DNA of 18,530 nt from Elusimicrobiota bacterium (GCA_003557485.1 PWOI01000051.1:1-18530); one strand, 5' to 3'. Shown: positions 1 to 18,530, numbered from the stretch's first letter. Program-made: numbers and translations. The notes: generated by a model not told the origin, from the letters alone.

Positions 1-949
1 ATATGCTTAATTTTTCAAGCGTACCTATAAACGGCAGAAAGACAGCCGTGTTAAATAGATTGAAGAGGGTGTGCGAAAAGGCAATATAAAACATTATGGT
101 TGAAGTTGTCATTTGACCCGGGACAAGAAAATTAACAGCGCTTGTAAACCAGCCGAGATAAACAAAAACAAGCATATAAGAAACTCCTATTAAATTAAAA
201 AGAGTGTGTGACATAGCGGCCCGCCGGGCAGAAAGGTTTGCGCCCAGCGCCGAAATCTGGGCAGTGATTGTTGTTCCTATATTTTCCCCCAGAATAATCG
301 GCACGGCCGCTTCAAAAGGTATTATTCCGTTAAAAGCCAGCACCTGGACAAGAGCTATTGTGGCGCTTGAACTCTGAAGAACGATAGTGAAAACAAGCCC
401 AGCTAAGACTCCCAGGATGGGATTGCGGCTGAAGGAAATAAACATATTTTCAACATATTCGCTTCCCCTCAAAGGATCGACAGCGGTTCTCATAAGAGCA
501 AGCCCCGTAAAGAGCAGGCCTATGCCAAGTATGACCTCACCCATAAACCTTGCCTTCCTGGTCTTTGCGGTCTTCATAATCAAAACCCCAACCCCTACAG
601 CAACAAGAGCATAGGCTGCTATATCAAAAGCACCGATCAAAGATACAATCCAGGCGGTGAAAGTTGTACCGATATTGGCCCCGAGCAGTACGGATATAGC
701 CTGGGCCAGGGTAAGCAGGCCTGCGTTTACAAACCCGACAACCATTACCGAAGTAGCGCTTGATGACTGGACAAGAAAAGTTACAAGAACTCCAACGCCG
801 ATGCCGACTACCGGCAGTTTGGTAGCCCTGTGAAGAAAGCTTTTAAGGCGATCCCCGGAAACCTTCTTCATTCCGTCAGACATAAGCTGCATTCCAAAGA
901 AGAAAAGCCCGAGTCCGCCTATAAGTGTAAAAACAGATTGTTGTATCAT
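1..949 (-). CDS. Na/Pi cotransporter family protein (partial, C-terminus outside window)
   Basis: The frame opens at an ATG at 949 and stays open to the window edge, giving 316 residues of a membrane protein. Two copies of the family's signature lie at about residues 61-66 and 192-197, both reading QSSSAT and each followed about 30 residues later by an N-I-G-T-T motif (ANIGTT, ENIGTT). This inverted-repeat layout is the hallmark of the Na/Pi cotransporter fold (NptA/SLC34-like, PF02690), which uses the sodium gradient to import phosphate across the inner membrane. Bacterial members often carry a C-terminal PhoU-like domain; that part would lie outside the window. The start is supported by the lack of further upstream sequence similarity and by a promoter about 60 bases upstream. 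The ribosome binding site is weak (TGGGGT). The substrate is inferred from the family; family assignment is secure. Confidence 0.93.
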   Translation of the reverse strand, partial: MIQQSVFTLIGGLGLFFFGMQLMSDGMKKVSGDRLKSFLHRATKLPVVGIGVGVLVTFLVQSSSATSVMVVGFVNAGLLTLAQAISVLLGANIGTTFTAWIVSLIGAFDIAAYALVAVGVGVLIMKTAKTRKARFMGEVILGIGLLFTGLALMRTAVDPLRGSEYVENMFISFSRNPILGVLAGLVFTIVLQSSSATIALVQVLAFNGIIPFEAAVPIILGENIGTTITAQISALGANLSARRAAMSHTLFNLIGVSYMLVFVYLGWFTSAVNFLVPGQMTTSTIMFYIAFSHTLFNLFNTAVFLPFIGTLEKLSI

Positions 950-1163
950 AATAACCCCAAATGTTTCAAAGCATTAAAGAAAATTCCGTAAGTTATATAC
1001 GGGTTTTATGGGTTAATTATCTTTTTATTATGGTAGTTTGTCAACTTTATTAAAACCCTGCTTTACTCTTACATCCCGGTCGATGGGAAAAACTCCCGAA
1101 TGCCTCTCTACTCCTTTTTTTAAAATATATATTGTCTATTTATTGGTATCCCGCATAAACCCT
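950..1163. other. Intergenic region between antiporter remnant and Na/Pi gene
   Basis: Apart from the promoter at 1016-1044, I see no gene here. No convincing terminator follows the antiporter: a GGGA/TCCC stem around 1085-1097 is short and lacks a U run. The region is AT-rich with several homopolymer runs. Confidence 0.5.
1016..1044 (-). promoter_or_regulatory. Sigma70-type promoter for the Na/Pi cotransporter gene
   Basis: On the minus strand there is a perfect -35 TTGACA (1039-1044), a 17-base spacer and a -10 GATAAT (1016-1021; five of six consensus bases). Transcription would start near 1008, leaving a leader of about 60 bases that contains a small CCGTA/TACGG stem. It is the best housekeeping-type promoter in the window. 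Confidence 0.75.
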
Positions 1164-1268
1164 TCAATTTCTTTTAAGCAGGTGTTTTGAAGACCAGTTT
1201 ATTCCTATAGCTCCAAGAGGTGCCGTTATGATTATGGACAAAACTGCTATGGCAAGTATCAGATCCCC
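1164..1268 (-). pseudogene. C-terminal 34 codons of the antiporter, cut off by an in-frame amber codon
   Basis: Reading on from the TAG at 1269-1271 in the same frame gives 34 codons ending at TGA (1164-1166). The peptide begins GDLILAIAVLSI, continues ITAPLGAIGI and ends in a basic tail (KHLLKRN). This is a complete last transmembrane helix of the kind that follows the conserved GIP motif in this antiporter family. No shift of frame is needed; a single substitution of the TAG restores a protein of 393 residues. Confidence 0.8.
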
Positions 1269-2345
1269 CTAAGGTATACCCATAGAAAGGGGTATGGCTC
1301 CTACAGCAGCCTGAACAGTCGCTTTAGGAAAATAGGCTATTATGCAGAACAATCTTTCTTTTGCGTTCAGGTTTGTTGCTGCTGTGGAAAAAGCCACACC
1401 GGCACTTCTGCCGGCAAGGCCTATCAGGATTATTAACGCTCCTATGGGGCCCGCATCCCGGGCAAGATGGATATTGACCTGCGCCCCGATGAGTACAAAA
1501 AGAAGTATTTCAGCAAAAATCCATATTTTCCCGAATTTCTCCGCTATCCTTTTAGCTGTTTGCGGAGTTTTCTCAAGTATTATGAAACCAACTACCGTTA
1601 CTCCGAGCAGTCCTGCTACCTGAACGGTTCCGCTTAAAAGGTCTTCAATGGCAGTTATAAGAATCGCTATGCCCAGTATGTAAAGAACTTTTTTTGTATC
1701 TCTCATACTGAAACGGGAAAAAGATTTTATAAGTAAAAATCCTGCAAGAATGCCAATTGCAATGCCGAGCAATATAGAAGAGAAAAACGTCAGCACCTGT
1801 CCCGTAACATTTACAGATGCCGCTGCGTATATAGCAAGGAACGATGTCAACATGGTCACGGCAAAAACATCATCAACAGAAGAGCCCGCCAGTATCAGAG
1901 TCGGGATACCTTTATCGGCACCTATGCCTTTCTCGGAAAAGTGAAGCATCCTGGGTACAACTACTGCCGGAGAGACAGCGGCTACAACAAATCCAAGAAT
2001 AGCGCCTTCAATGAAACCGAAACCCAGGAAATGCATTGAGATGAAAGCTATTGTGAAACCTTCTATGAGCCCGGGAATGAAACTCAGCTTTATAGCGGTC
2101 TTTCCAACTTTCTTAAGCTTCTGCTTTTCCAGTCCCAGTCCTGCGCGCAGCAAAATGATAACAAGTGCAATAAGCCTGAAGTCAGAAGAAACCCTGAGCA
2201 GTTCCGGCGTAAGCCAGCCAGCCCCGTACGGACCTATTACTATTCCTGCCAGAAGCATCCCGAGAATACCCGGGAGTTTCATGGCTTTGAATACATAATT
2301 CGCAAGCAGCCCCAGTATAATTATAATGCCTATACTTGTAGCCAT
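1269..2345 (-). CDS. Fluoride-riboswitch-controlled cation/proton antiporter (CPA type), ends at an in-frame TAG
   Basis: This is a polytopic membrane protein of 358 residues from the ATG at 2345 to a TAG at 1269-1271. It belongs to the cation/proton antiporter superfamily. The N-terminal hairpin (KLPGILGMLLAG, about 23-34), the central SPAVVVP segment (125-131), the SSVDDVF motif with a carboxylate pair at D158-D159, and a conserved lysine at 341 (FPKATVQAA) match that fold. Antiporters of this type are one of the gene classes known to follow fluoride riboswitches, so a role in fluoride or sodium/proton homeostasis is likely. Two starts compete: ATG 2345 with AAAGGAA six bases upstream, and TTG 2360, which sits seven bases behind the AGGAG in the riboswitch hairpin. 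The protein stops one transmembrane helix early: the same frame continues after the TAG with a typical family C-terminus. It may be a fresh pseudogene, a sequencing error or a read-through gene. Confidence 0.88.
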   Translation of the reverse strand: MATSIGIIIILGLLANYVFKAMKLPGILGMLLAGIVIGPYGAGWLTPELLRVSSDFRLIALVIILLRAGLGLEKQKLKKVGKTAIKLSFIPGLIEGFTIAFISMHFLGFGFIEGAILGFVVAAVSPAVVVPRMLHFSEKGIGADKGIPTLILAGSSVDDVFAVTMLTSFLAIYAAASVNVTGQVLTFFSSILLGIAIGILAGFLLIKSFSRFSMRDTKKVLYILGIAILITAIEDLLSGTVQVAGLLGVTVVGFIILEKTPQTAKRIAEKFGKIWIFAEILLFVLIGAQVNIHLARDAGPIGALIILIGLAGRSAGVAFSTAATNLNAKERLFCIIAYFPKATVQAAVGAIPLSMGIP

Positions 2346-2366
2346 AAAAGTTCCTTTCAACAAATA

Positions 2367-9015: not shown

Positions 9016-10773
9016 ATGGTAGTAAGAAAACTTTCTTTAAGAGAAGTCCTTCTGCAGGACAAAATAATTGACCAGCAGACGCTGAAAAGCCTCGAGTTAA
9101 GGGCTGAACAGCTCGGCAAACCTCTTGAGCAGATTCTAGTTGATTCCCAGACTATACCCAAGCAGAAATTCCTGCAGCTGCTCAGCGCCAAGTGGGACGT
9201 TAAAGCCGTAGATCTTTCTTCTCTTGAAATAGATGAAGAAGCGGCGCGGCTTATACCTGAAACCACCGCAAGAAAATATCTTCTTCTTCCTTTTGCGCGC
9301 GCGGAAAAAATGCTCTATACGGCAATGGCGCGGCCGTGGGACCTTACGGCAATAGAAGACCTGACAATCCGAACCAACTATGAGATTCAGCCCTATCTGA
9401 GCCTTCCTACAGATATCTCTAAAGCACTCAATGAAATATTTTCTCAGGACTCCAGAATTTCCGACTACATATCAAATATTACTGCAGATGAAAATATTGA
9501 CCAGCAGGATTTAAAACAGTCCACCGCAAGGGAAGAAATTTCTATTGAAAAGTCTCCTGCTGACGATGAAAAGCAGGCGCGCCAGATAGCTAACGCGGTT
9601 ATCCTTGAAGGGCTTAAGAGAGGCGCCTCCGATATTCATATAGAGCCCTTTGAAAAAGTCCTTCTTATACGATACCGTATTGACGGACAGCTCCTTAAAT
9701 CATCATTTAACATAGGAACGAATCTTCTTAACGCGATGCTGGCAAGAATTAAAATAATGGCCAAAACTATGGATATAACTGAAAAGCGGATGCCGCAGGA
9801 CGGCCGGATACAGATCACCTTCCAGGGAAAACCTATTGAATTCAGGGTAAACACAATCCCGACTGCCTACGGTGAAAGCTGCGTGATGAGGGTCCTGGAC
9901 CGAACCAGCATAATGGTTGACCTTTCAAAGCTTGGTTTTTTGCCGGATACCATGGAACAGCTCCGGACCGCACTTGCAAAACCATACGGCATAATACTTG
10001 TTTGCGGACCTACGGGAAGCGGAAAATCAACTACACTTTACTCGGCTCTCAATTACCTTTTACAGGAATCAAAAAAAACTGCTGACGGAAAAGGAAAACC
10101 AGTTTCGCCGAAAAAAATACTTACCGCTGAGAATCCGGTTGAATACGACCTGGCGGAAGTTGTGCAGCTCAATATAAATCCTGAAATAGACCTTACTTTT
10201 GCAGAGGCAATGAGAGCTTTCTTGCGTCAGGACCCGGACATAATAATGGTCGGAGAAATAAGAGACAGGGAAACAGCGCAGATTGCAATGGAAGCCGCCC
10301 TTACGGGCCACCTGGTTATTTCGACAATACATACCAATGACGCGCCCAGCGCAGTTTCAAGGCTTGCTGAAATGCAGGTACCTACATATCTCATTTCATC
10401 AACAATTGAAGCCGTGCTTGCGCAGCGCCTGGTCAGGAAAATATGCTCCGCATGCGCTGAAGACATGAATGAAATACCACAGAAACTTAAAGAGGAACTG
10501 GAAAAATATAATATTCCTCTTGAAAAAGCTAAACTTAAAATTGGAAGAGGTTGCAAGGAATGTTCAAATACCGGATATAAGGGACGGATGGGCCTGTACG
10601 AACTGCTTAATTTTGATGAAGATATCAGGAAACTTCTACTTGAGCAGATAGCGGCTTCGCCTATAGCAAAGCTTGCCAGGGAAAAAGGCATGAGGCCCCT
10701 CTGGGAAGACGGAATAATGAAAGTGGCTCAGGGATTAACCACTTACGAAGAAATATTGAGAGTGAGTCAGTAA
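9016..10773 (+). CDS. pilB: PilB/GspE-type secretion and type IV pilus assembly ATPase
   Basis: A hexameric cytoplasmic ATPase of 585 residues that powers pilin polymerisation or type II secretion. The N-terminus (1-145) is an MshEN-like domain, but its ligand motifs are eroded (SLREVLLQDK and PLEQILVDSQ in place of RLG..L...G). The ATPase core has SDIHIEP (205-211), Walker A GPTGSGKST (331-339), LRQDPDIIMVGEIRD (403-417) with the Asp and Walker B boxes, and the His box GHLVISTIHTNDA (431-443). Two CxxC pairs, C477/C480 and C513/C516, form the zinc site typical of PilB/GspE. It is one base from the next gene. No ribosome binding site is visible before the ATG, and the nearest upstream in-frame stop is only four codons away. 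Whether it serves pili or secretion cannot be told from this window. Confidence 0.95.
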   Translation: MVVRKLSLREVLLQDKIIDQQTLKSLELRAEQLGKPLEQILVDSQTIPKQKFLQLLSAKWDVKAVDLSSLEIDEEAARLIPETTARKYLLLPFARAEKMLYTAMARPWDLTAIEDLTIRTNYEIQPYLSLPTDISKALNEIFSQDSRISDYISNITADENIDQQDLKQSTAREEISIEKSPADDEKQARQIANAVILEGLKRGASDIHIEPFEKVLLIRYRIDGQLLKSSFNIGTNLLNAMLARIKIMAKTMDITEKRMPQDGRIQITFQGKPIEFRVNTIPTAYGESCVMRVLDRTSIMVDLSKLGFLPDTMEQLRTALAKPYGIILVCGPTGSGKSTTLYSALNYLLQESKKTADGKGKPVSPKKILTAENPVEYDLAEVVQLNINPEIDLTFAEAMRAFLRQDPDIIMVGEIRDRETAQIAMEAALTGHLVISTIHTNDAPSAVSRLAEMQVPTYLISSTIEAVLAQRLVRKICSACAEDMNEIPQKLKEELEKYNIPLEKAKLKIGRGCKECSNTGYKGRMGLYELLNFDEDIRKLLLEQIAASPIAKLAREKGMRPLWEDGIMKVAQGLTTYEEILRVSQ

Positions 10774-12912: not shown

Positions 12913-13368
12913 TCAGGCAGGGTAATTACTGTTTATGGCGTCTATTATTTCCTCTTCGGAAGTTATGTAGGCCTCAACCTCCATTCCGGTAAGTACAGAA
13001 ATGGATGTCCGGACTTCTTCTTCCTGGGGTTCAGCCATTGCTATTTTAATTACGTTATTTTCTATTTCAAAAGGTATCAGCAAATGCTTGGCAGCAATGT
13101 TTTTAGGAATATAGCCAAGAACTTCTCTGGAAATATTCCCGTACTCCGAAACTTTTATATAGGGAGTCCCTATCTGCTTACCAACAATTGAAAGAACTAC
13201 TTCCTTATCTACATAGCCCATAGAAGAAAGTATTTCCCCGAGCTTCATCTTGGATCCTTTATGGCGCTGAAGTATGTTTTCCAGTTTTTCATCGTCAATA
13301 AAGTCCAGCGATTTAAGTATTTCCCCCAATCTTTTTTTGCCAAGTATTTTTTTTGATTCTTTGTTCAT
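12913..13368 (-). CDS. Stand-alone MshEN (GspE/PilB N-terminal) domain protein
   Basis: This 151-residue protein consists only of the domain normally found in front of PilB/GspE ATPases (PF05157). Two tandem copies of the helix motif are seen: KRLGEILKSLDFIDDEKL (12-29) and KLGEILSSMGYVDKEVVL (42-59). The alpha/beta part follows (IPKNIAAKHLLIPFEIENN, 87-105; then IKIAMAEP and a C-terminal EEEIIDAIN helix). In MshE these motifs bind cyclic-di-GMP; here the Leu-Gly pair survives in both copies, the arginine is Lys42 in the second and the later glycine is Asp22 in the first, so binding is plausible but unproven. There is no Walker motif. It may act in trans on a PilB-type ATPase. The gene follows a strong terminator, with AGGT seven bases before the ATG. 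Confidence 0.88.
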   Translation of the reverse strand: MNKESKKILGKKRLGEILKSLDFIDDEKLENILQRHKGSKMKLGEILSSMGYVDKEVVLSIVGKQIGTPYIKVSEYGNISREVLGYIPKNIAAKHLLIPFEIENNVIKIAMAEPQEEEVRTSISVLTGMEVEAYITSEEEIIDAINSNYPA

Positions 13369-13653: not shown

Positions 13654-14055
13654 ATGAGTGAAGATACTGAAAAACTTTTTAAACGGCTTGTTGAAATCTG
13701 CGCCAGGCTGCGCAGAAAAGACGGCTGTATGTGGGACAGACAGCAGGACCATTCATCTCTTGTACCGTATCTCACAGAGGAAACCCAGGAAGTAAAGGAT
13801 GCGATAGCAAAAAATGATATGGAAAACCTTTGCGAAGAACTGGGAGACCTGCTTTACCAGATCCTCTTTCACAGCCGGATCGCAGAAGAAAACGGCGAAT
13901 TTTCAATATATGATGTTCTAGGGGGAATAACCGAAAAAATTATACGCAGGCATCCCCATGTTTTTTCAGATCAGGAAGTTTCGTCCGTGGAGGATATTGT
14001 CAGGAACTGGGAAAAAATTAAAAAAGCAGAAAAAGAAAGAAAAAATCCCGAATAG
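13654..14055 (+). CDS. mazG: MazG-type nucleoside triphosphate pyrophosphohydrolase (single domain)
   Basis: MazG hydrolyses NTPs and dNTPs to monophosphates and pyrophosphate, clearing aberrant nucleotides from the pool. This copy has 133 residues, one domain, about half of the E. coli two-domain protein. The N-terminal segment GCMWDRQQDHSSLVPYL (24-40) corresponds to the usual CPWD...T-SL block with Met for Pro. The Mg-binding carboxylates are E42/E43/E46 (EETQE) and E62/D65 (EELGD), followed by QILFHSRIAEE and RRHPHVF. It ends in TAG, showing that this codon is a normal stop here. GGTGGA lies about ten bases upstream of the ATG. It converges on hypA with three bases between the stops. Confidence 0.94.
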   Translation: MSEDTEKLFKRLVEICARLRRKDGCMWDRQQDHSSLVPYLTEETQEVKDAIAKNDMENLCEELGDLLYQILFHSRIAEENGEFSIYDVLGGITEKIIRRHPHVFSDQEVSSVEDIVRNWEKIKKAEKERKNPE

Positions 14056-14058
14056 GTT

Positions 14059-14379
14059 TTACTCCACTTCAAGAACCCCAAAACCCATACCTGAAATTAT
14101 CTCGTTTTCAATCCCGCCGCAGCCGGGACATTGAAGCGTTTCTTCCTGTTCCGAAATAACAAGTCCGCATCCGGTACATTTAAGGGCCACAACTTCTTCA
14201 ATTATTTCAAATTTTTCTATTTTCATATGGTCCCTTAATATATGTGTAAGTTCATCAAGAGATTCTCCGGATGCTTTGCCGGCTCTAAGTACTACTTTTT
14301 TTATGGTACTTATACCCTTTAACTCCGCTTTGAGGCGTATTTCCTTTTCTATTTCACGGGCTTTCACTGATTCATGCAT
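14059..14379 (-). CDS. hypA: Hydrogenase nickel-insertion protein HypA
   Basis: HypA delivers Ni2+ to the large subunit of [NiFe] hydrogenases together with HypB. The product has 106 residues, slightly short for the family. It begins MHES, so the N-terminal Met-His nickel ligand (H2) is present. The zinc site is C68-T-G-C71 and C84-P-G-C87. It is the last gene of the operon, with its start overlapping the protease gene by 16 bases. No other hyp genes are in the window; hypB-F would have to lie elsewhere. Confidence 0.95.
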   Translation of the reverse strand: MHESVKAREIEKEIRLKAELKGISTIKKVVLRAGKASGESLDELTHILRDHMKIEKFEIIEEVVALKCTGCGLVISEQEETLQCPGCGGIENEIISGMGFGVLEVE

Positions 14380-14867
14380 AGTTTTTTCTCAAGTTCTTCA
14401 GCAAGCCTCTCAACTGATTCTCTTACCGAACGGCTTATACTTCCGCTAAGCGTTTGGGGCTGTATACCTACTACCATTACTTTCGAACCGGCTTCCAGTC
14501 GGAGGAATTCCGCGCTCAAGTCCAACCCCGCCGTGTGCGTGGAGAGCCCCTGAAAAACTTTCTGCGATTCAAAAACCCTAACAGCTCCCGGCCTGCCGCC
14601 AAAATCAACGGCATCTATTATTAAGACAAGCCCCGGCTTAAAGGAAGCTATTTTTCCCAGATAGTTTTCAGGATTTTCACCGCAGGGAAAGGATAGCTTA
14701 AATCCTTTTTCTCTCAGTATTTCTGCAACAGCTACTCCGCTTCCGTCATCGCCGCGGGAGGGGTTGCCTACTCCCATAACAGCTGTCCCGGCAGGGAATA
14801 CTGATTCGCTGAATATATTCAGTTTCCGGCTTCCTTTCTGTAAACTTCGTGCCTGCATACCGGGCAA
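14364..14867 (-). CDS. hycI: HycI/HybD-family [NiFe]-hydrogenase maturation protease
   Basis: After nickel insertion, these endopeptidases trim the C-terminus of the hydrogenase large subunit. The 167-residue protein has the signature GVGNPSRGDDGSG (32-44), IIDAVDFGGRPG (83-94), STHTAGL (109-115) and GIQPQ (134-138). The nickel-sensing ligands are probably D40 or D41, D85 and H111. The start is uncertain: ATG 14867 gives a 49-base overlap with the upstream gene, and ATG 14858 is the next option. The N-terminal 25 residues are not typical of E. coli HycI. Its presence means a catalytic [NiFe] large subunit that needs processing is probably encoded nearby; it is not in the window. Confidence 0.93.
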   Translation of the reverse strand: MPGMQARSLQKGSRKLNIFSESVFPAGTAVMGVGNPSRGDDGSGVAVAEILREKGFKLSFPCGENPENYLGKIASFKPGLVLIIDAVDFGGRPGAVRVFESQKVFQGLSTHTAGLDLSAEFLRLEAGSKVMVVGIQPQTLSGSISRSVRESVERLAEELEKKLCMNQ

Positions 14868-15427
14868 AGGAATGTAAAAATATCGGAACGGGTAATTTCT
14901 TTGCGTTTTGCCTTACCGGGCATCTGTCTCTTTATCTGAATCTGGCGAGCTAGAAGCATATCTGGAGATGAAGACGCAAGAGCGGGACCTATTCTTCCTG
15001 AGACAGCCTCAAGCTGTTTTAAGGTGCCTACCGGACCGGCGCATTTAGAGCATACTACAAGTTCGAACTCCTGTTTTATATTCATTTCATCAGGGGTGTA
15101 ACCGGAAAAATCGTATTCCCTGCTTAATTTTACTCCAGGATGCGGCTGGGGACATTTTTCTTCGCACTGCCCGCAGTAATTACACCTGTCCCAGTAGCGG
15201 GTAATTGTTCTTACGGCTTCTTTCTTCCTGTCCTCTATAACAATAGCATCTGACGGGCAGGCCTGAGCGCAGGCCTCACACCCTATGCACCACTGGTCAT
15301 CAGGGAGAGGTTTACCCCTGAATCCTTCCGGGGCCGGGGAATCCCTAAAGGGAAACCTGGAAGTATATCTGCGGGAAAATACCGCTGTCAGGGCTTCTTT
15401 CAGTTCTCTGAGCTTGGGTAGCTTCAT
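14819..15427 (-). CDS. HycF-like 2x[4Fe-4S] electron-transfer subunit of a group 4 hydrogenase
   Basis: The 202-residue protein carries two [4Fe-4S] ferredoxin motifs: C47/C50/C53/C57 (CIGCEACAQACP) and C82/C85/C88/C92 (CNYCGQCEEKCP). Before them FRGKP (36-40) and after them two further CxxC pairs (C126/C129, C188/C191) follow the layout of HycF/HyfH of formate hydrogenlyase, better than that of plain NuoI. It would relay electrons along the peripheral arm of a membrane-bound hydrogenase. The ATG at 15427 is chosen because it overlaps the mrpG stop (TGATG) and has GGAG eight bases upstream; an upstream ATG at 15442 is possible. The extra CxxC pairs could form a zinc ribbon. Confidence 0.9.
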   Translation of the reverse strand: MKLPKLRELKEALTAVFSRRYTSRFPFRDSPAPEGFRGKPLPDDQWCIGCEACAQACPSDAIVIEDRKKEAVRTITRYWDRCNYCGQCEEKCPQPHPGVKLSREYDFSGYTPDEMNIKQEFELVVCSKCAGPVGTLKQLEAVSGRIGPALASSSPDMLLARQIQIKRQMPGKAKRKEITRSDIFTFLCPVCRHEVYRKEAGN

Positions 15428-15783
15428 CAGTCCTGCTCCCATTCAGGATGTTCGGGCTGCCGGCATATTTCGGAATATTCGTCTCCAACGGATTTTTTCC
15501 ATAGTTTAACTCCGTACCGATACGAGGCCCGGGCAAGGGAATGGGCACCGGTTGGCGATGTCAATCCGACAAAAATCATTGCCAGCAGAGCCTTAAGGCC
15601 CGAGGGATTTATACCCTCGATTATAAAAATTCCCAGAAGAATGCAGCATGTACCCATTGTTACGCATTTGGTAGCGGACTGCAGGCGGTTATATACATCC
15701 GGCATCCTGATCAGACCTATGCATCCGCCTATGTCAAAAAGGATTCCAATACCTATTATTATAATACCGAGAGTATAACTCAT
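15427..15783 (-). CDS. mrpG: Mrp-type cation/proton antiporter subunit G
   Basis: A small membrane protein of 118 residues with three predicted helices. RMPDVYNRLQSATK (26-39) is the MrpG/MnhG signature, and LTSPTGAHSLARAS (74-87) matches its C-terminal part. It belongs to the hydrophobic module that couples ion movement in Mrp antiporters and Mbh/Mrp-type hydrogenases. The start overlaps the stop of mrpF (ATGA). The C-terminal 27 residues are hydrophilic. Confidence 0.95.
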   Translation of the reverse strand: MSYTLGIIIIGIGILFDIGGCIGLIRMPDVYNRLQSATKCVTMGTCCILLGIFIIEGINPSGLKALLAMIFVGLTSPTGAHSLARASYRYGVKLWKKSVGDEYSEICRQPEHPEWEQD

Positions 15784-16040
15784 TCGTCGAACCTTTTTCC
15801 TTCCAGGAACTTTGAAAGAGCTACCGTTCCTATGAAACTCAAAAGCGCCCAGGATATAGCAACATTAATATAGAAATCGTTTCCCGAAACAACTGTGTAA
15901 AGAGCGCTTATCCCTACCACAACCGTACCTACTATATCTATTGCTACAGCCCTGTCCGGAGGAGTCGGACCCGTACCTATCCTGTATATACAGAGAAAAC
16001 AGCACAACAGCAGCAGCCAGAAATAAATTTGAAAAATCAT
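15780..16040 (-). CDS. mrpF: Mrp-type cation/proton antiporter subunit F
   Basis: The product has 86 residues and three predicted helices. GTGPTPPDRAVAID (22-35) holds the conserved aspartate-arginine pair (D29/R30) of MrpF/MnhF. A Shine-Dalgarno (AAGGTG) lies just before the ATG inside mrpE, and the ATGA overlap with the mrpE stop indicates coupled translation. Confidence 0.95.
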   Translation of the reverse strand: MIFQIYFWLLLLCCFLCIYRIGTGPTPPDRAVAIDIVGTVVVGISALYTVVSGNDFYINVAISWALLSFIGTVALSKFLEGKRFDE

Positions 16041-16540
16041 TCAAACACCTTCTTTAGTATGCTCTCAAACCTTCCCCCTATTTCCTCGGTATGCGACTTA
16101 ACGCTTCTTTTCCTTATATATATCCAGTGCACATAGATATCTTCCCCTCTTATATCAATGGCAAGAGTTCCCGGCGTCAGGGTTATGGAATTACATAGTA
16201 TCGCACGGGCTATAGGGTTGTTAAGCGAAGTCTTTATCTTAACTATCCCCGGTTTTATGGGAAGATCGGGATGTACAACCCTGTAGAGAACATCCAGGTT
16301 GGCTTTTATCATGTGCCATACAAGTACCGGCACATAAACAACAGCCCAAATATACCTCTTCGGCTGGGAAAGTTTTGAGCTGTTTATTCCCCTGGGCGTA
16401 GAAGGAAATATCATAAGGACTATTCCCGCCGCCAGCAGGCCGGCTATGAAAGACTGAAGGTCAAACGGACTGAAAGGCCAGGTACACATCAGCCATATAA
16501 CAAACAGAGCTGTAAAGACTATAAGTCTTTTAATTATCAC
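16037..16540 (-). CDS. mrpE: Mrp-type cation/proton antiporter subunit E
   Basis: The start is a GTG at 16540, with GGAGG six bases upstream and a GTGA overlap with the mrpD stop. Longer open frames to 16657 run through mrpD and lack similarity, so they are not used. The 167-residue product has two or three helices in the first 80 residues and the family motif SITLTPGTLAIDI (118-130), followed by a soluble tail. It is a core subunit of Mrp antiporters and of Mbh-type hydrogenases. Confidence 0.95.
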   Translation of the reverse strand: MIIKRLIVFTALFVIWLMCTWPFSPFDLQSFIAGLLAAGIVLMIFPSTPRGINSSKLSQPKRYIWAVVYVPVLVWHMIKANLDVLYRVVHPDLPIKPGIVKIKTSLNNPIARAILCNSITLTPGTLAIDIRGEDIYVHWIYIRKRSVKSHTEEIGGRFESILKKVFE

Positions 16541-18033
16541 AATATACCTCCGGTTGCTATTCTTATATAAGCGGCAGGGTTGAGAAGGACATCTGCCGCG
16601 CCATCCAGCACAACCGCCCTTATTCCTGGAATCAGAAGAATTCCCATTACCGCACATAAAACGGCAAGGAATACCATTGAAAGGGTCATCGGAAGCGGGA
16701 CCTCCTTAATTTTTTTCAGGCCTTCCTTTAACTCTCCTAAAAAAGCGTATCTCTGCACTTTGGCAAAAGAGGCAAGCGTAAGAACACTGCCCAGAACCGC
16801 CCAGAGAGCCAGCCACAGGTAGCCCCCCTGAATCGCGGCGATTATTATCAGCAATTTACTCCAGAAACCGTTAAAGGGGGGCATCCCTGCTATGGAAAGC
16901 GAAGCAACCATAGATGTATAGCCGGTCACGGGCATAACCGCGTTAAGCCCTCCCATATCGCGCAGGTCCCTGGTTGAAGTCCTGTAGAATAGAGCGCCTG
17001 AATTAAGAAAGAGCAGCGACTTGAATACCGAATGATTAAGAAGGTGAAAGAGCCCGGCAACAATTCCCAGGGGCGTTGCTACGCCAAAAGCCAGAGCTAT
17101 ATAACCCATCTGACTTACCGAATGATATGCCAGAAGGCGCTTGAAATCCCATTGTCCCAGGGCAAGAAGAACTCCCACCATAAGTGAAACAGTCCCCAAT
17201 GTACGCAGCAGCATTGAAGCGACGGCAAGATCTGCGGCAAACAACATAAAAAGAATCCTGACCATCGCGTAAATACCCGCTGTTTTAATAAGAACTCCGC
17301 TCAGCATTGCCGATACCGGGGCCGGCGCAGCGGGATGTGCATCCGGAAGCCAGGCATGAAAAGGTATCAGCGCCGCCTTTATGCCGAAACCTACTATCAG
17401 GAATCCGGCGGCAAGATATATGCCGGGACCGGCTGACCCGGAAGAAAGCGCGTTATAAATGAAAACCATGCTTAAATTGCGCGTATGTCCGTATGTAAGA
17501 GCTATTCCCGTAAGAATAAACGTTGTGGCTACCCCTGAAAGAACCAGGTATTTAAAGGCTGCTTCCAGTTCTTCTTTCATCGTGCCGTAGGCAACAAGAG
17601 CAAAAGAAGAAACCGCCGCCAGTTCCATAAACACATAGAGATTAAAAATATCTGAAGTCAGCACTATCCCGTTCATCCCGGCAACCATTAGAAGAAAAAG
17701 AGAGAAAAACTTTTCCCGGCCGCTATACATATCCATGTAGCTGAATGAGAATACTGCACAGATAAGGGATACCAGTCCTGTTACCGCAAGCACCGGCGCG
17801 CTGAATCCATCAAGGACCAGGGCTATCCCTATTGGTATTGACCGGCCGCCCATTTCAAAAACCCCGGTTTTTCCCAAATGCGCTATTGCCAGTACCGTAA
17901 GAGAAAGACAGGCGAGGGCTGCGGTTATATTTGCAACAAGAATTCTCTTCTTATCATTTTTAAGCACATCAAAAGTAGAGAGCGCAAAAGCCGCTCCAAC
18001 AGGTATGAGTATAAAAAGAGGCAGAGTATTCAT
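16537..18033 (-). CDS. mrpD: Mrp-type antiporter subunit D (NuoM/NuoN-like proton channel)
   Basis: A 498-residue protein with about 14 helices, homologous to the antiporter-like subunits of complex I and of Mrp and Mbh complexes. Conserved charged residues are in place: E137 in YVFMELAAVS, K161 in FKYLVLSG, K219 in GIKAALIPFHAWLPDAH, K250, H334 and K338 in LNHSVFKSL, and K393 in GFWSKLLI. These form the ion path. It has one member of the MrpA/MrpD type only; no MrpA lies in the window. Its start overlaps the stop of mrpC (ATGA) with AAAGG directly upstream. Confidence 0.95.
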   Translation of the reverse strand: MNTLPLFILIPVGAAFALSTFDVLKNDKKRILVANITAALACLSLTVLAIAHLGKTGVFEMGGRSIPIGIALVLDGFSAPVLAVTGLVSLICAVFSFSYMDMYSGREKFFSLFLLMVAGMNGIVLTSDIFNLYVFMELAAVSSFALVAYGTMKEELEAAFKYLVLSGVATTFILTGIALTYGHTRNLSMVFIYNALSSGSAGPGIYLAAGFLIVGFGIKAALIPFHAWLPDAHPAAPAPVSAMLSGVLIKTAGIYAMVRILFMLFAADLAVASMLLRTLGTVSLMVGVLLALGQWDFKRLLAYHSVSQMGYIALAFGVATPLGIVAGLFHLLNHSVFKSLLFLNSGALFYRTSTRDLRDMGGLNAVMPVTGYTSMVASLSIAGMPPFNGFWSKLLIIIAAIQGGYLWLALWAVLGSVLTLASFAKVQRYAFLGELKEGLKKIKEVPLPMTLSMVFLAVLCAVMGILLIPGIRAVVLDGAADVLLNPAAYIRIATGGIL

Positions 18034-18392
18034 CCTTTTAGGTCCTTCATCTTAGAGGTATCAAAGGTTTTGTACCTGTCATAGAGCCGTATTGCTATGG
18101 CAATCATCAGAGCTACTATACTCAGCCCTATAACTATTGATGTAATCACAATGGCCTGGGCCAGCGGGTCAACCGCCATAGAGGCAAATTCAGACGCCTC
18201 CTGCCCCTTATCCATTATAGGAGCAATCCCGCCGGAGCGGTATCCTATAAGAAGAATAAACAGGTTTACCGCATTGGTCATAATAAGAAGGGATATGATG
18301 ATTTTTACAGCGTTCTTTTTACAGACAACGCCGTAAAGCCCGACGGCGAATAAAATCATTGCAAGTCCGTATGCAAGAGGCATATTATTCAT
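18030..18392 (-). CDS. mrpC: Mrp-type antiporter subunit C (NuoK-like)
   Basis: The 120-residue product has three helices and the NuoK-like pattern: GLYGVVCKKNAVKIIISLL (18-36), TNAVNLFI (39-46) and DPLAQAIVITSIVIG (75-89). The start at 18392 has GGAG eight bases upstream; the longer frame to 18422 would add ten residues inside mrpB and is not preferred. It overlaps the upstream gene by eight bases. Confidence 0.93.
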   Translation of the reverse strand: MNNMPLAYGLAMILFAVGLYGVVCKKNAVKIIISLLIMTNAVNLFILLIGYRSGGIAPIMDKGQEASEFASMAVDPLAQAIVITSIVIGLSIVALMIAIAIRLYDRYKTFDTSKMKDLKG

Positions 18393-18530
18393 CCTGACTG
18401 CTCCTGAATACCGAAAGGGCAACGAAAACCATAAATATACCCGCTCCTACTTTAAGCCATACGGCAAGGTTGAGGGGAGGTATGATCCCTCCCGAAAGCA
18501 GTGAAAATTCCTGCCCTTTCCAGAGGCTGA
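18385..18530 (-). CDS. mrpB: Mrp-type antiporter subunit B (partial, C-terminal 48 residues)
   Basis: Only the end of the gene is in the window. The frame reads SLWKGQEFSLLSGGIIPPLN, then LAVWLKVGAGIFMVFVAL, and stops at TAA (18385-18387). The G-I-P-x-x-N...K-V-G-A-G-I pattern is characteristic of the MrpB/MnhB C-terminal helix. It is the most upstream gene of the Mrp-hydrogenase operon visible here. Confidence 0.85.
   Translation of the reverse strand, partial: SLWKGQEFSLLSGGIIPPLNLAVWLKVGAGIFMVFVALSVFRSSQDE

Follow-up and report, generated by a model that had tools for sequence, protein, structure and literature searches.

Here, we describe an Mrp-linked group 4 [NiFe] hydrogenase operon from the Elusimicrobiota bacterium GCA_003557485.1. 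The stretch analyzed (PWOI01000051.1:1-18530; hereafter the window) is an entire contig, C156, of 18,530 bases. It belongs to a metagenome-assembled genome (MAG; G000) of 2.07 Mb in 212 contigs that is 86.6% complete. Positions 14059-18530 of the window make up the downstream half of an operon of 19 genes (rex, beta, gamma, 4Fe-4S, nuoH, nuoB, nuoC, nuoD, nuoL, mbhDE, mrpB-G, hycF, hycI, and hypA), while the upstream half, including the [NiFe] large and small subunits, is held by a second contig, C93 (locus L004; 8,690 bases). With moderate confidence, we propose that this hydrogenase has its own NAD(P)H module, couples electron transfer from NAD(P)H to H2 reversibly to Na+/H+ movement, and acts as a redox valve under Rex control. 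Judging from its genes, it is most likely an NAD(P)H:H+ oxidoreductase that is coupled to Na+ and belongs to the HydDB 4g kind, rather than a plain ferredoxin enzyme. The kind of enzyme is already known; an NAD(P)H link has so far not been assigned to this widespread, uncharacterized hydrogenase class.

One operon across two contigs

Searches with Pfam curated cut-offs and NCBIfam models recovered all of the genes named for positions 14059-18530, on the minus strand. An initial annotation, made from the window alone, had described mrpB-C-D-E-F-G, a HycF-like gene, hycI, and hypA as one overlapping run. This is confirmed, with only the C-terminal end of mrpB falling within the window. That annotation also called the genes “fused”, which is correct for gene linkage but not for the proteins, among which there is no fusion. 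The genes in the window are as follows:

18385..18530, minus strand: mrpB, C-terminal end (last 146 bases); the N-terminal remainder is at L004:3-425, and the frame runs through the exact overlap
18030..18392, minus strand: mrpC (NuoK-like); PF00420, 90.8 bits
16537..18033, minus strand: mrpD antiporter subunit; PF00361, 214.9 bits
16037..16540, minus strand: mrpE; PF01899, 123.5 bits
15780..16040, minus strand: mrpF; PF04066, 68.2 bits
15427..15783, minus strand: mrpG; PF03334, 84.8 bits
14819..15442, minus strand: HycF-like ferredoxin subunit; best solved match Escherichia coli formate hydrogenlyase (FHL) HycF, 7z0s_F
14364..14867, minus strand: hycI, hydrogenase maturation endopeptidase; PF01750, and TIGR00072 above cut-off
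14059..14379, minus strand: hypA, nickel metallochaperone; PF01155 above cut-off

Hydrogenase large and small subunits had been predicted upstream. They are found there, immediately upstream within the operon, on the overlapping contig C93, where the only PF00346 protein encoded by the genome is located. C93 begins with the same 121 bases with which the window ends, and the mrpB reading frame is continuous across this overlap. The overlap alone is only suggestive of a join, because graph assemblers leave 121-base overlaps at junctions. However, gene order is identical in the close relatives L025-L027, which settles the join. Adjacent operon genes overlap by 1-49 bases; these overlaps, together with the same order in dozens of independent genomes, indicate that the linkage is not due to chance. 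A convergent mazG (13654-14055) stops three bases from the hypA stop, and the operon therefore ends there. A plain Mrp antiporter beside maturation genes is ruled out, since the hydrogenase subunits share the operon. The genes on C93 are as follows:

L004:7872-8495, minus strand: rex, first operon gene
L004:6889-7875, minus strand: beta; sulfhydrogenase I (SHI) beta/AsrA-like
L004:6084-6896, minus strand: gamma; SHI gamma/AsrB-like
L004:5669-6097, minus strand: CooF/HycB-like 4Fe-4S protein (Pfam/NCBIfam)
L004:4767-5672, minus strand: nuoH-like; PF00146 above cut-off
L004:4330-4770, minus strand: small subunit, nuoB-like; PF01058 above cut-off
L004:3908-4330, minus strand: nuoC-like; PF00329 above cut-off
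L004:2706-3911, minus strand: large subunit (nuoD); PF00346, with CGIC and DPCYCC Ni motifs
L004:940-2709, minus strand: NuoL-like antiporter subunit (Pfam/NCBIfam)
L004:422 to about 940, minus strand: mbhDE/DUF4040 (Pfam/NCBIfam)
L004:3-425, minus strand: mrpB, continuing into the window

The hydrogenase core and the Mrp module

By sequence, this is a hydrogenase with a large subunit of group 4. The initial annotation had proposed a group 4 [NiFe] hydrogenase tied to an Mrp module, and the large subunit (CGIC, DPCYCC) and the small subunit support this. All four Ni-binding cysteines are present in the large subunit (RICGIC and DPCYCC), as they are in essentially all members of its clade; among solved chains, it is nearest to Pyrococcus MbhL, followed by HycE. 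The set of group 4 partners is complete: NuoB-, NuoC-, and NuoH-like proteins score above Pfam cut-offs and are joined by the HycF-like ferredoxin subunit. After the arginine of DPCYCCTER, the large subunit has a conserved tail of ~30 residues that nearly all clade members keep, while several outgroup large subunits stop at this arginine and have no tail. A cleavable tail fits the presence of hycI in the same operon. This presumed cleaved tail (L004:2709-2810 and relatives) is unusually conserved across phyla, with many sequences carrying LIxLSQEKT.

The HycF-like protein scores higher against HycF (7z0s_F; 70.5 bits) than against MbhN (45.8), and its top NCBIfam model is the FHL iron-sulfur subunit, with a score below the model cut-off. 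It has two [4Fe-4S] motifs plus C131xxC134 and C193xxC196, and 12 cysteines are invariant across 49 sequences. Thus, the earlier assignment to a HycF rather than MbhN layout holds, based on the two extra CxxC motifs. HypA has its MHE N-terminus and two CxxC motifs conserved.

All seven Mrp subunits A-G have homologues: MrpA is split into NuoL-like and MbhDE parts, and MrpB-G are intact. The antiporter residues of the module are conserved, including E137, K219, K250, and K393 of MrpD in the alignment of relatives. The closest solved chain to MrpD is MbhH (6cfw_H). Elsewhere in the genome, a V-type ATPase K subunit (G000:C134:17454-17876; L127:1237-1734) most resembles that of the sodium ATPase of Enterococcus hirae, with 156 bits against this sodium type versus 33 against proton types. 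The window also carries genes for a Na+/phosphate cotransporter and a Na+/H+ exchanger (2-2363, minus strand), consistent with sodium-based membrane energetics.

A conserved NAD(P)H module

The beta and gamma proteins resemble the NAD(P)H-flavin module of Pyrococcus furiosus SHI (9nez). Gamma matches SHI gamma with an E value of 9.9e-49 and beta matches SHI beta, its only solved match, with an E value of 4.8e-32; both also match AsrA/AsrB in NCBIfam. FAD/NAD motifs are conserved, as are the GGGxGxAPLR motif and four [2Fe-2S] cysteines of gamma in 62 sequences, and 15 cysteines of beta are invariant in 58. The homology and conserved cofactor motifs suggest that the hydrogenase probably exchanges electrons with NAD(P)H.

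This module is nearly universal among relatives. Upstream sequence of at least 5.2 kb before the large subunit was available for 45 loci; gamma is found in all 45 and beta in 44. For comparison, among 40 loci with enough downstream sequence, each Mrp gene is found in 37-39 and hycF in 40. The module is kept in relatives at 53% (L105) and 49% (L106) identity, and occurs in a different layout in L107 (43% identity). It was not found in L108-L110, L114, or L117, among the relatives' loci examined. Three loci (L115, L036, and L032) have beta/gamma and the hydrogenase core with no Mrp genes, or only NuoL-like subunits, between the large subunit and hycF.

In the large-subunit phylogeny, which had been proposed as a check on the initial annotation, the beta/gamma-bearing clade separates from Mbh (including MbhL), HycE, and other group 4 or complex I-like sequences with 100/100 support. 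L107, a fragment, was left out of the tree, and deep outgroup placement is unsure due to long branches. The closest large subunits are from Elusimicrobia MAGs (75-71% identity) and group with the window's protein at 100/100.

Alternatively, this could be a ferredoxin-dependent, Mbh-like Mrp hydrogenase, with beta and gamma forming an accompanying enzyme (ferredoxin:NAD(P)H or sulfur-reducing), or only an alternative outlet. Among solved structures, the large subunit and MrpD are indeed nearest to Pyrococcus Mbh, the genome encodes a pyruvate:ferredoxin-oxidoreductase-family protein and RnfC, and Rex is able to regulate ferredoxin enzymes. In addition, HydDB describes group 4g as putatively ferredoxin-coupled, with an undetermined role (PMC5037454). 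However, the genes for beta and gamma are part of the one overlapping run and are retained in almost every case, down to relatives at 49-53% identity, whereas Mbh has no such module. We regard this explanation as possible but doubtful.

In an electron-confurcating version of the enzyme, NAD(P)H and reduced ferredoxin would be oxidized together to yield H2. The operon encodes a flavin NAD(P)H subunit as well as subunits for ferredoxin-type input, and using both donors at once would make H2 production feasible. Gamma, however, belongs to the single-FAD SHI/PyrK kind, and we know of no bifurcation by such subunits; a second flavin subunit is absent from the operon. Furthermore, the genome has two [FeFe] hydrogenase genes on C160 and C164 (L119, L120, L123, and L125), with adjacent NuoF-like genes; these hydrogenases are probably bifurcating and would already serve that role. 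Confurcation here is improbable.

Formate as a possible electron donor

The initial annotation had also suggested a formate dehydrogenase upstream. None is present, and a profile search found no molybdopterin oxidoreductase (PF00384) in the 86.6% complete genome, although some relatives have one. Formate dehydrogenase alpha (TIGR01591 above cut-off) is encoded upstream in L028 (759-5170) and L029 (585-3700), and L028 also carries FdhD and a MobA-like gene. L029 and L033 have a second beta-like protein upstream of rex-beta-gamma. The same core may also take electrons from formate in L028 and L029; for G000, formate dehydrogenase was rejected as the donor. These two loci, and the FHL-like character of HycF, HycI, and the 4Fe-4S protein, would fit an FHL relative whose formate dehydrogenase is encoded elsewhere. 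Given the missing PF00384 match, and an operon that here starts with rex, this is highly improbable.

Probable Rex control of the operon

Rex senses NADH/NAD+. Directly before the rex start is an operator candidate (L004:8496-8513) with a 13/14 match to the Rex consensus TTGTGAA-N4-TTCACAA (PMC2883068; PMC6391272), where 0.01 are expected by chance. A weaker palindrome ~160 bases upstream of rex was rejected as the operator because the near-start site fits the consensus far better.

We scanned 80 relatives and the operon itself (1.19 Mb) for operators, with Markov-1 random sequence as a control. Sites matching at least 13/14 positions occurred 27 times. All 27 were at operon heads, which make up ~2.3% of the sequence, with 0 elsewhere and 0 in the random sequence. 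A site of at least 12/14 is present at 29/50 examined operon heads and absent from the other 21/50; thus, Rex control is not universal. Loci with Rex sites include those of Elusimicrobia, Endomicrobia, Omnitrophota, Planctomycetota, Nitrospirota, Latescibacterota, and Clostridia bins. Rex has also been predicted to control Ni-CODH/ECH (PMC13077300).

Proposed mechanism

From these genes, we infer a physical complex and an electron path, as well as the donor (NADH or NADPH), direction, and coupling ion. Electrons would most likely pass from NAD(P)H to gamma (FAD, [2Fe-2S]) and on to beta ([4Fe-4S] clusters). The CooF/HycB-like 4Fe-4S protein would take them next and hand them to the HycF-like protein, and the NuoB-like small subunit would finally deliver them to the [NiFe] site for H2 formation. 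Through the NuoH-like protein, both antiporter-like subunits, and the Mrp module, this redox reaction would be coupled reversibly to the movement of Na+/H+. When H2 is low, the reaction would be slightly exergonic and might drive ion export. When H2 is higher, it would have to be driven by an inward Na+ gradient, or it would reverse into H2-dependent NAD(P)+ reduction. The Rex operator at the operon head would switch the operon on at high NADH/NAD+. The hydrogenase would most likely be a redox valve in a fermenting anaerobe.

Several points weigh against this proposal. Electron transfer from NADH to H2 is uphill at standard conditions; when H2 is very low, it becomes roughly neutral or slightly favorable. 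We know of no purified member of the enzyme class. With its HycF-like and 4Fe-4S subunits, the enzyme could also accept electrons from ferredoxin, and direction and coupling cannot be read from sequence. Genes for hypD, hypE, and hypF were not found in G000, which is incomplete (86.6%), and an active [NiFe] site is therefore not assured here. Lastly, the NiFe membrane hydrogenase that Rex represses in Caldicellulosiruptor bescii depends on ferredoxin (PMC6391272), and Rex control is thus no proof that NADH is the substrate.

Maturation genes

In the closest relatives (G002, G004, and G005), hypF and hypD follow hypA on the same contig. Genome incompleteness may account for the absence of hypD, hypE, and hypF from G000. 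It accounts less easily for G008, G009, G010, G012, and G014, five Elusimicrobiota genomes of one family (90-97% complete) in which these genes were also not found and which all have the large subunit. The large subunits L079, L043, and L061 (taken for G008, G009, and G010) keep all four Ni cysteines. On the basis of these five genomes, it is conceivable, though quite unlikely, that an Elusimicrobiota lineage, possibly including G000, builds an active group 4 [NiFe] hydrogenase without canonical HypD/E/F. If so, another route to Fe(CN)2CO or another metal center would be needed.

Relation to known systems

The large subunit is ~60-63% identical to homologues in Omnitrophota and Endomicrobia MAGs. 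Published 4g enzymes include Mrp-linked ones in Omnitrophota and Cloacimonadota (PMC8542988) and 4g in Endomicrobium (PMC11257099); from the identity to homologues in groups whose enzymes are classed as 4g, we infer that the present enzyme is probably also a member. It occurs in the same phyla, but has an NAD(P)H module and Rex control, while 4g has been described as putatively ferredoxin-coupled.

A group 4 NiFe cluster in Saganbacteria RX5A has Mrp-like subunits, asrA, asrB, cooF, and a molybdopterin oxidoreductase. It was called enigmatic and Mbh-like, with its role left open, and has relatives in Omnitrophica and Zixibacteria (Matheus Carnevali et al. 2019, PMC6349859). The Elusimicrobiota version shares these components except for the molybdopterin enzyme. 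The breadth of distribution, the likeness to SHI beta/gamma, and Rex control were not found in the parts of the RX5A description consulted.

P. furiosus Mbh (4d) shares the NuoH/B/C/D-like core and homologues of Mrp E, F, G, A (C-terminal), B, C, and D. As had been noted initially, gene order is unlike that of Pyrococcus Mbh, with the E-F-G homologues last here. The present operon also has an extra NuoL-like subunit, the HycF layout, and the beta/gamma/4Fe-4S module. These differences, and a tree position apart from MbhL, led us to reject 4d membership. SHI (group 3b) and AsrA/AsrB have homologous beta and gamma; however, SHI is a soluble enzyme that has no antiporter and whose large and small subunits are of group 3, whereas the large subunit here is of group 4. 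Only beta and gamma are of the sulfhydrogenase kind, and membership in 3b was rejected. E. coli FHL (4a) shares the HycF layout, a HycE-like large subunit with a cleavable tail, and HycI. It lacks an Mrp module and has formate dehydrogenase in place of the NAD(P)H module; 4a/4b membership was rejected as the genome has no PF00384 match.

We did not find the near-universal beta/gamma module, the SHI likeness, or the conserved Rex operator in the literature searched, though the Elusimicrobia literature may already describe part of this. Published reports place 4g enzymes in several anaerobic phyla that are uncultivated. Should these enzymes use NAD(P)H, with Rex control and sodium-antiporter coupling, they would tie the NADH pool and H2 to the sodium gradient and convert energy between them. 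The metabolism modeled for Omnitrophota, Elusimicrobiota, and others would then change, and the enzyme would stand between membrane hydrogenases and complex I as an NADH-linked intermediate.

Other genes in the window

A stand-alone MshEN-domain protein is encoded at 12913-13368 (minus strand), a few genes from a PilB-type ATPase with an MshEN domain (9016-10773) and GAF-HD proteins.

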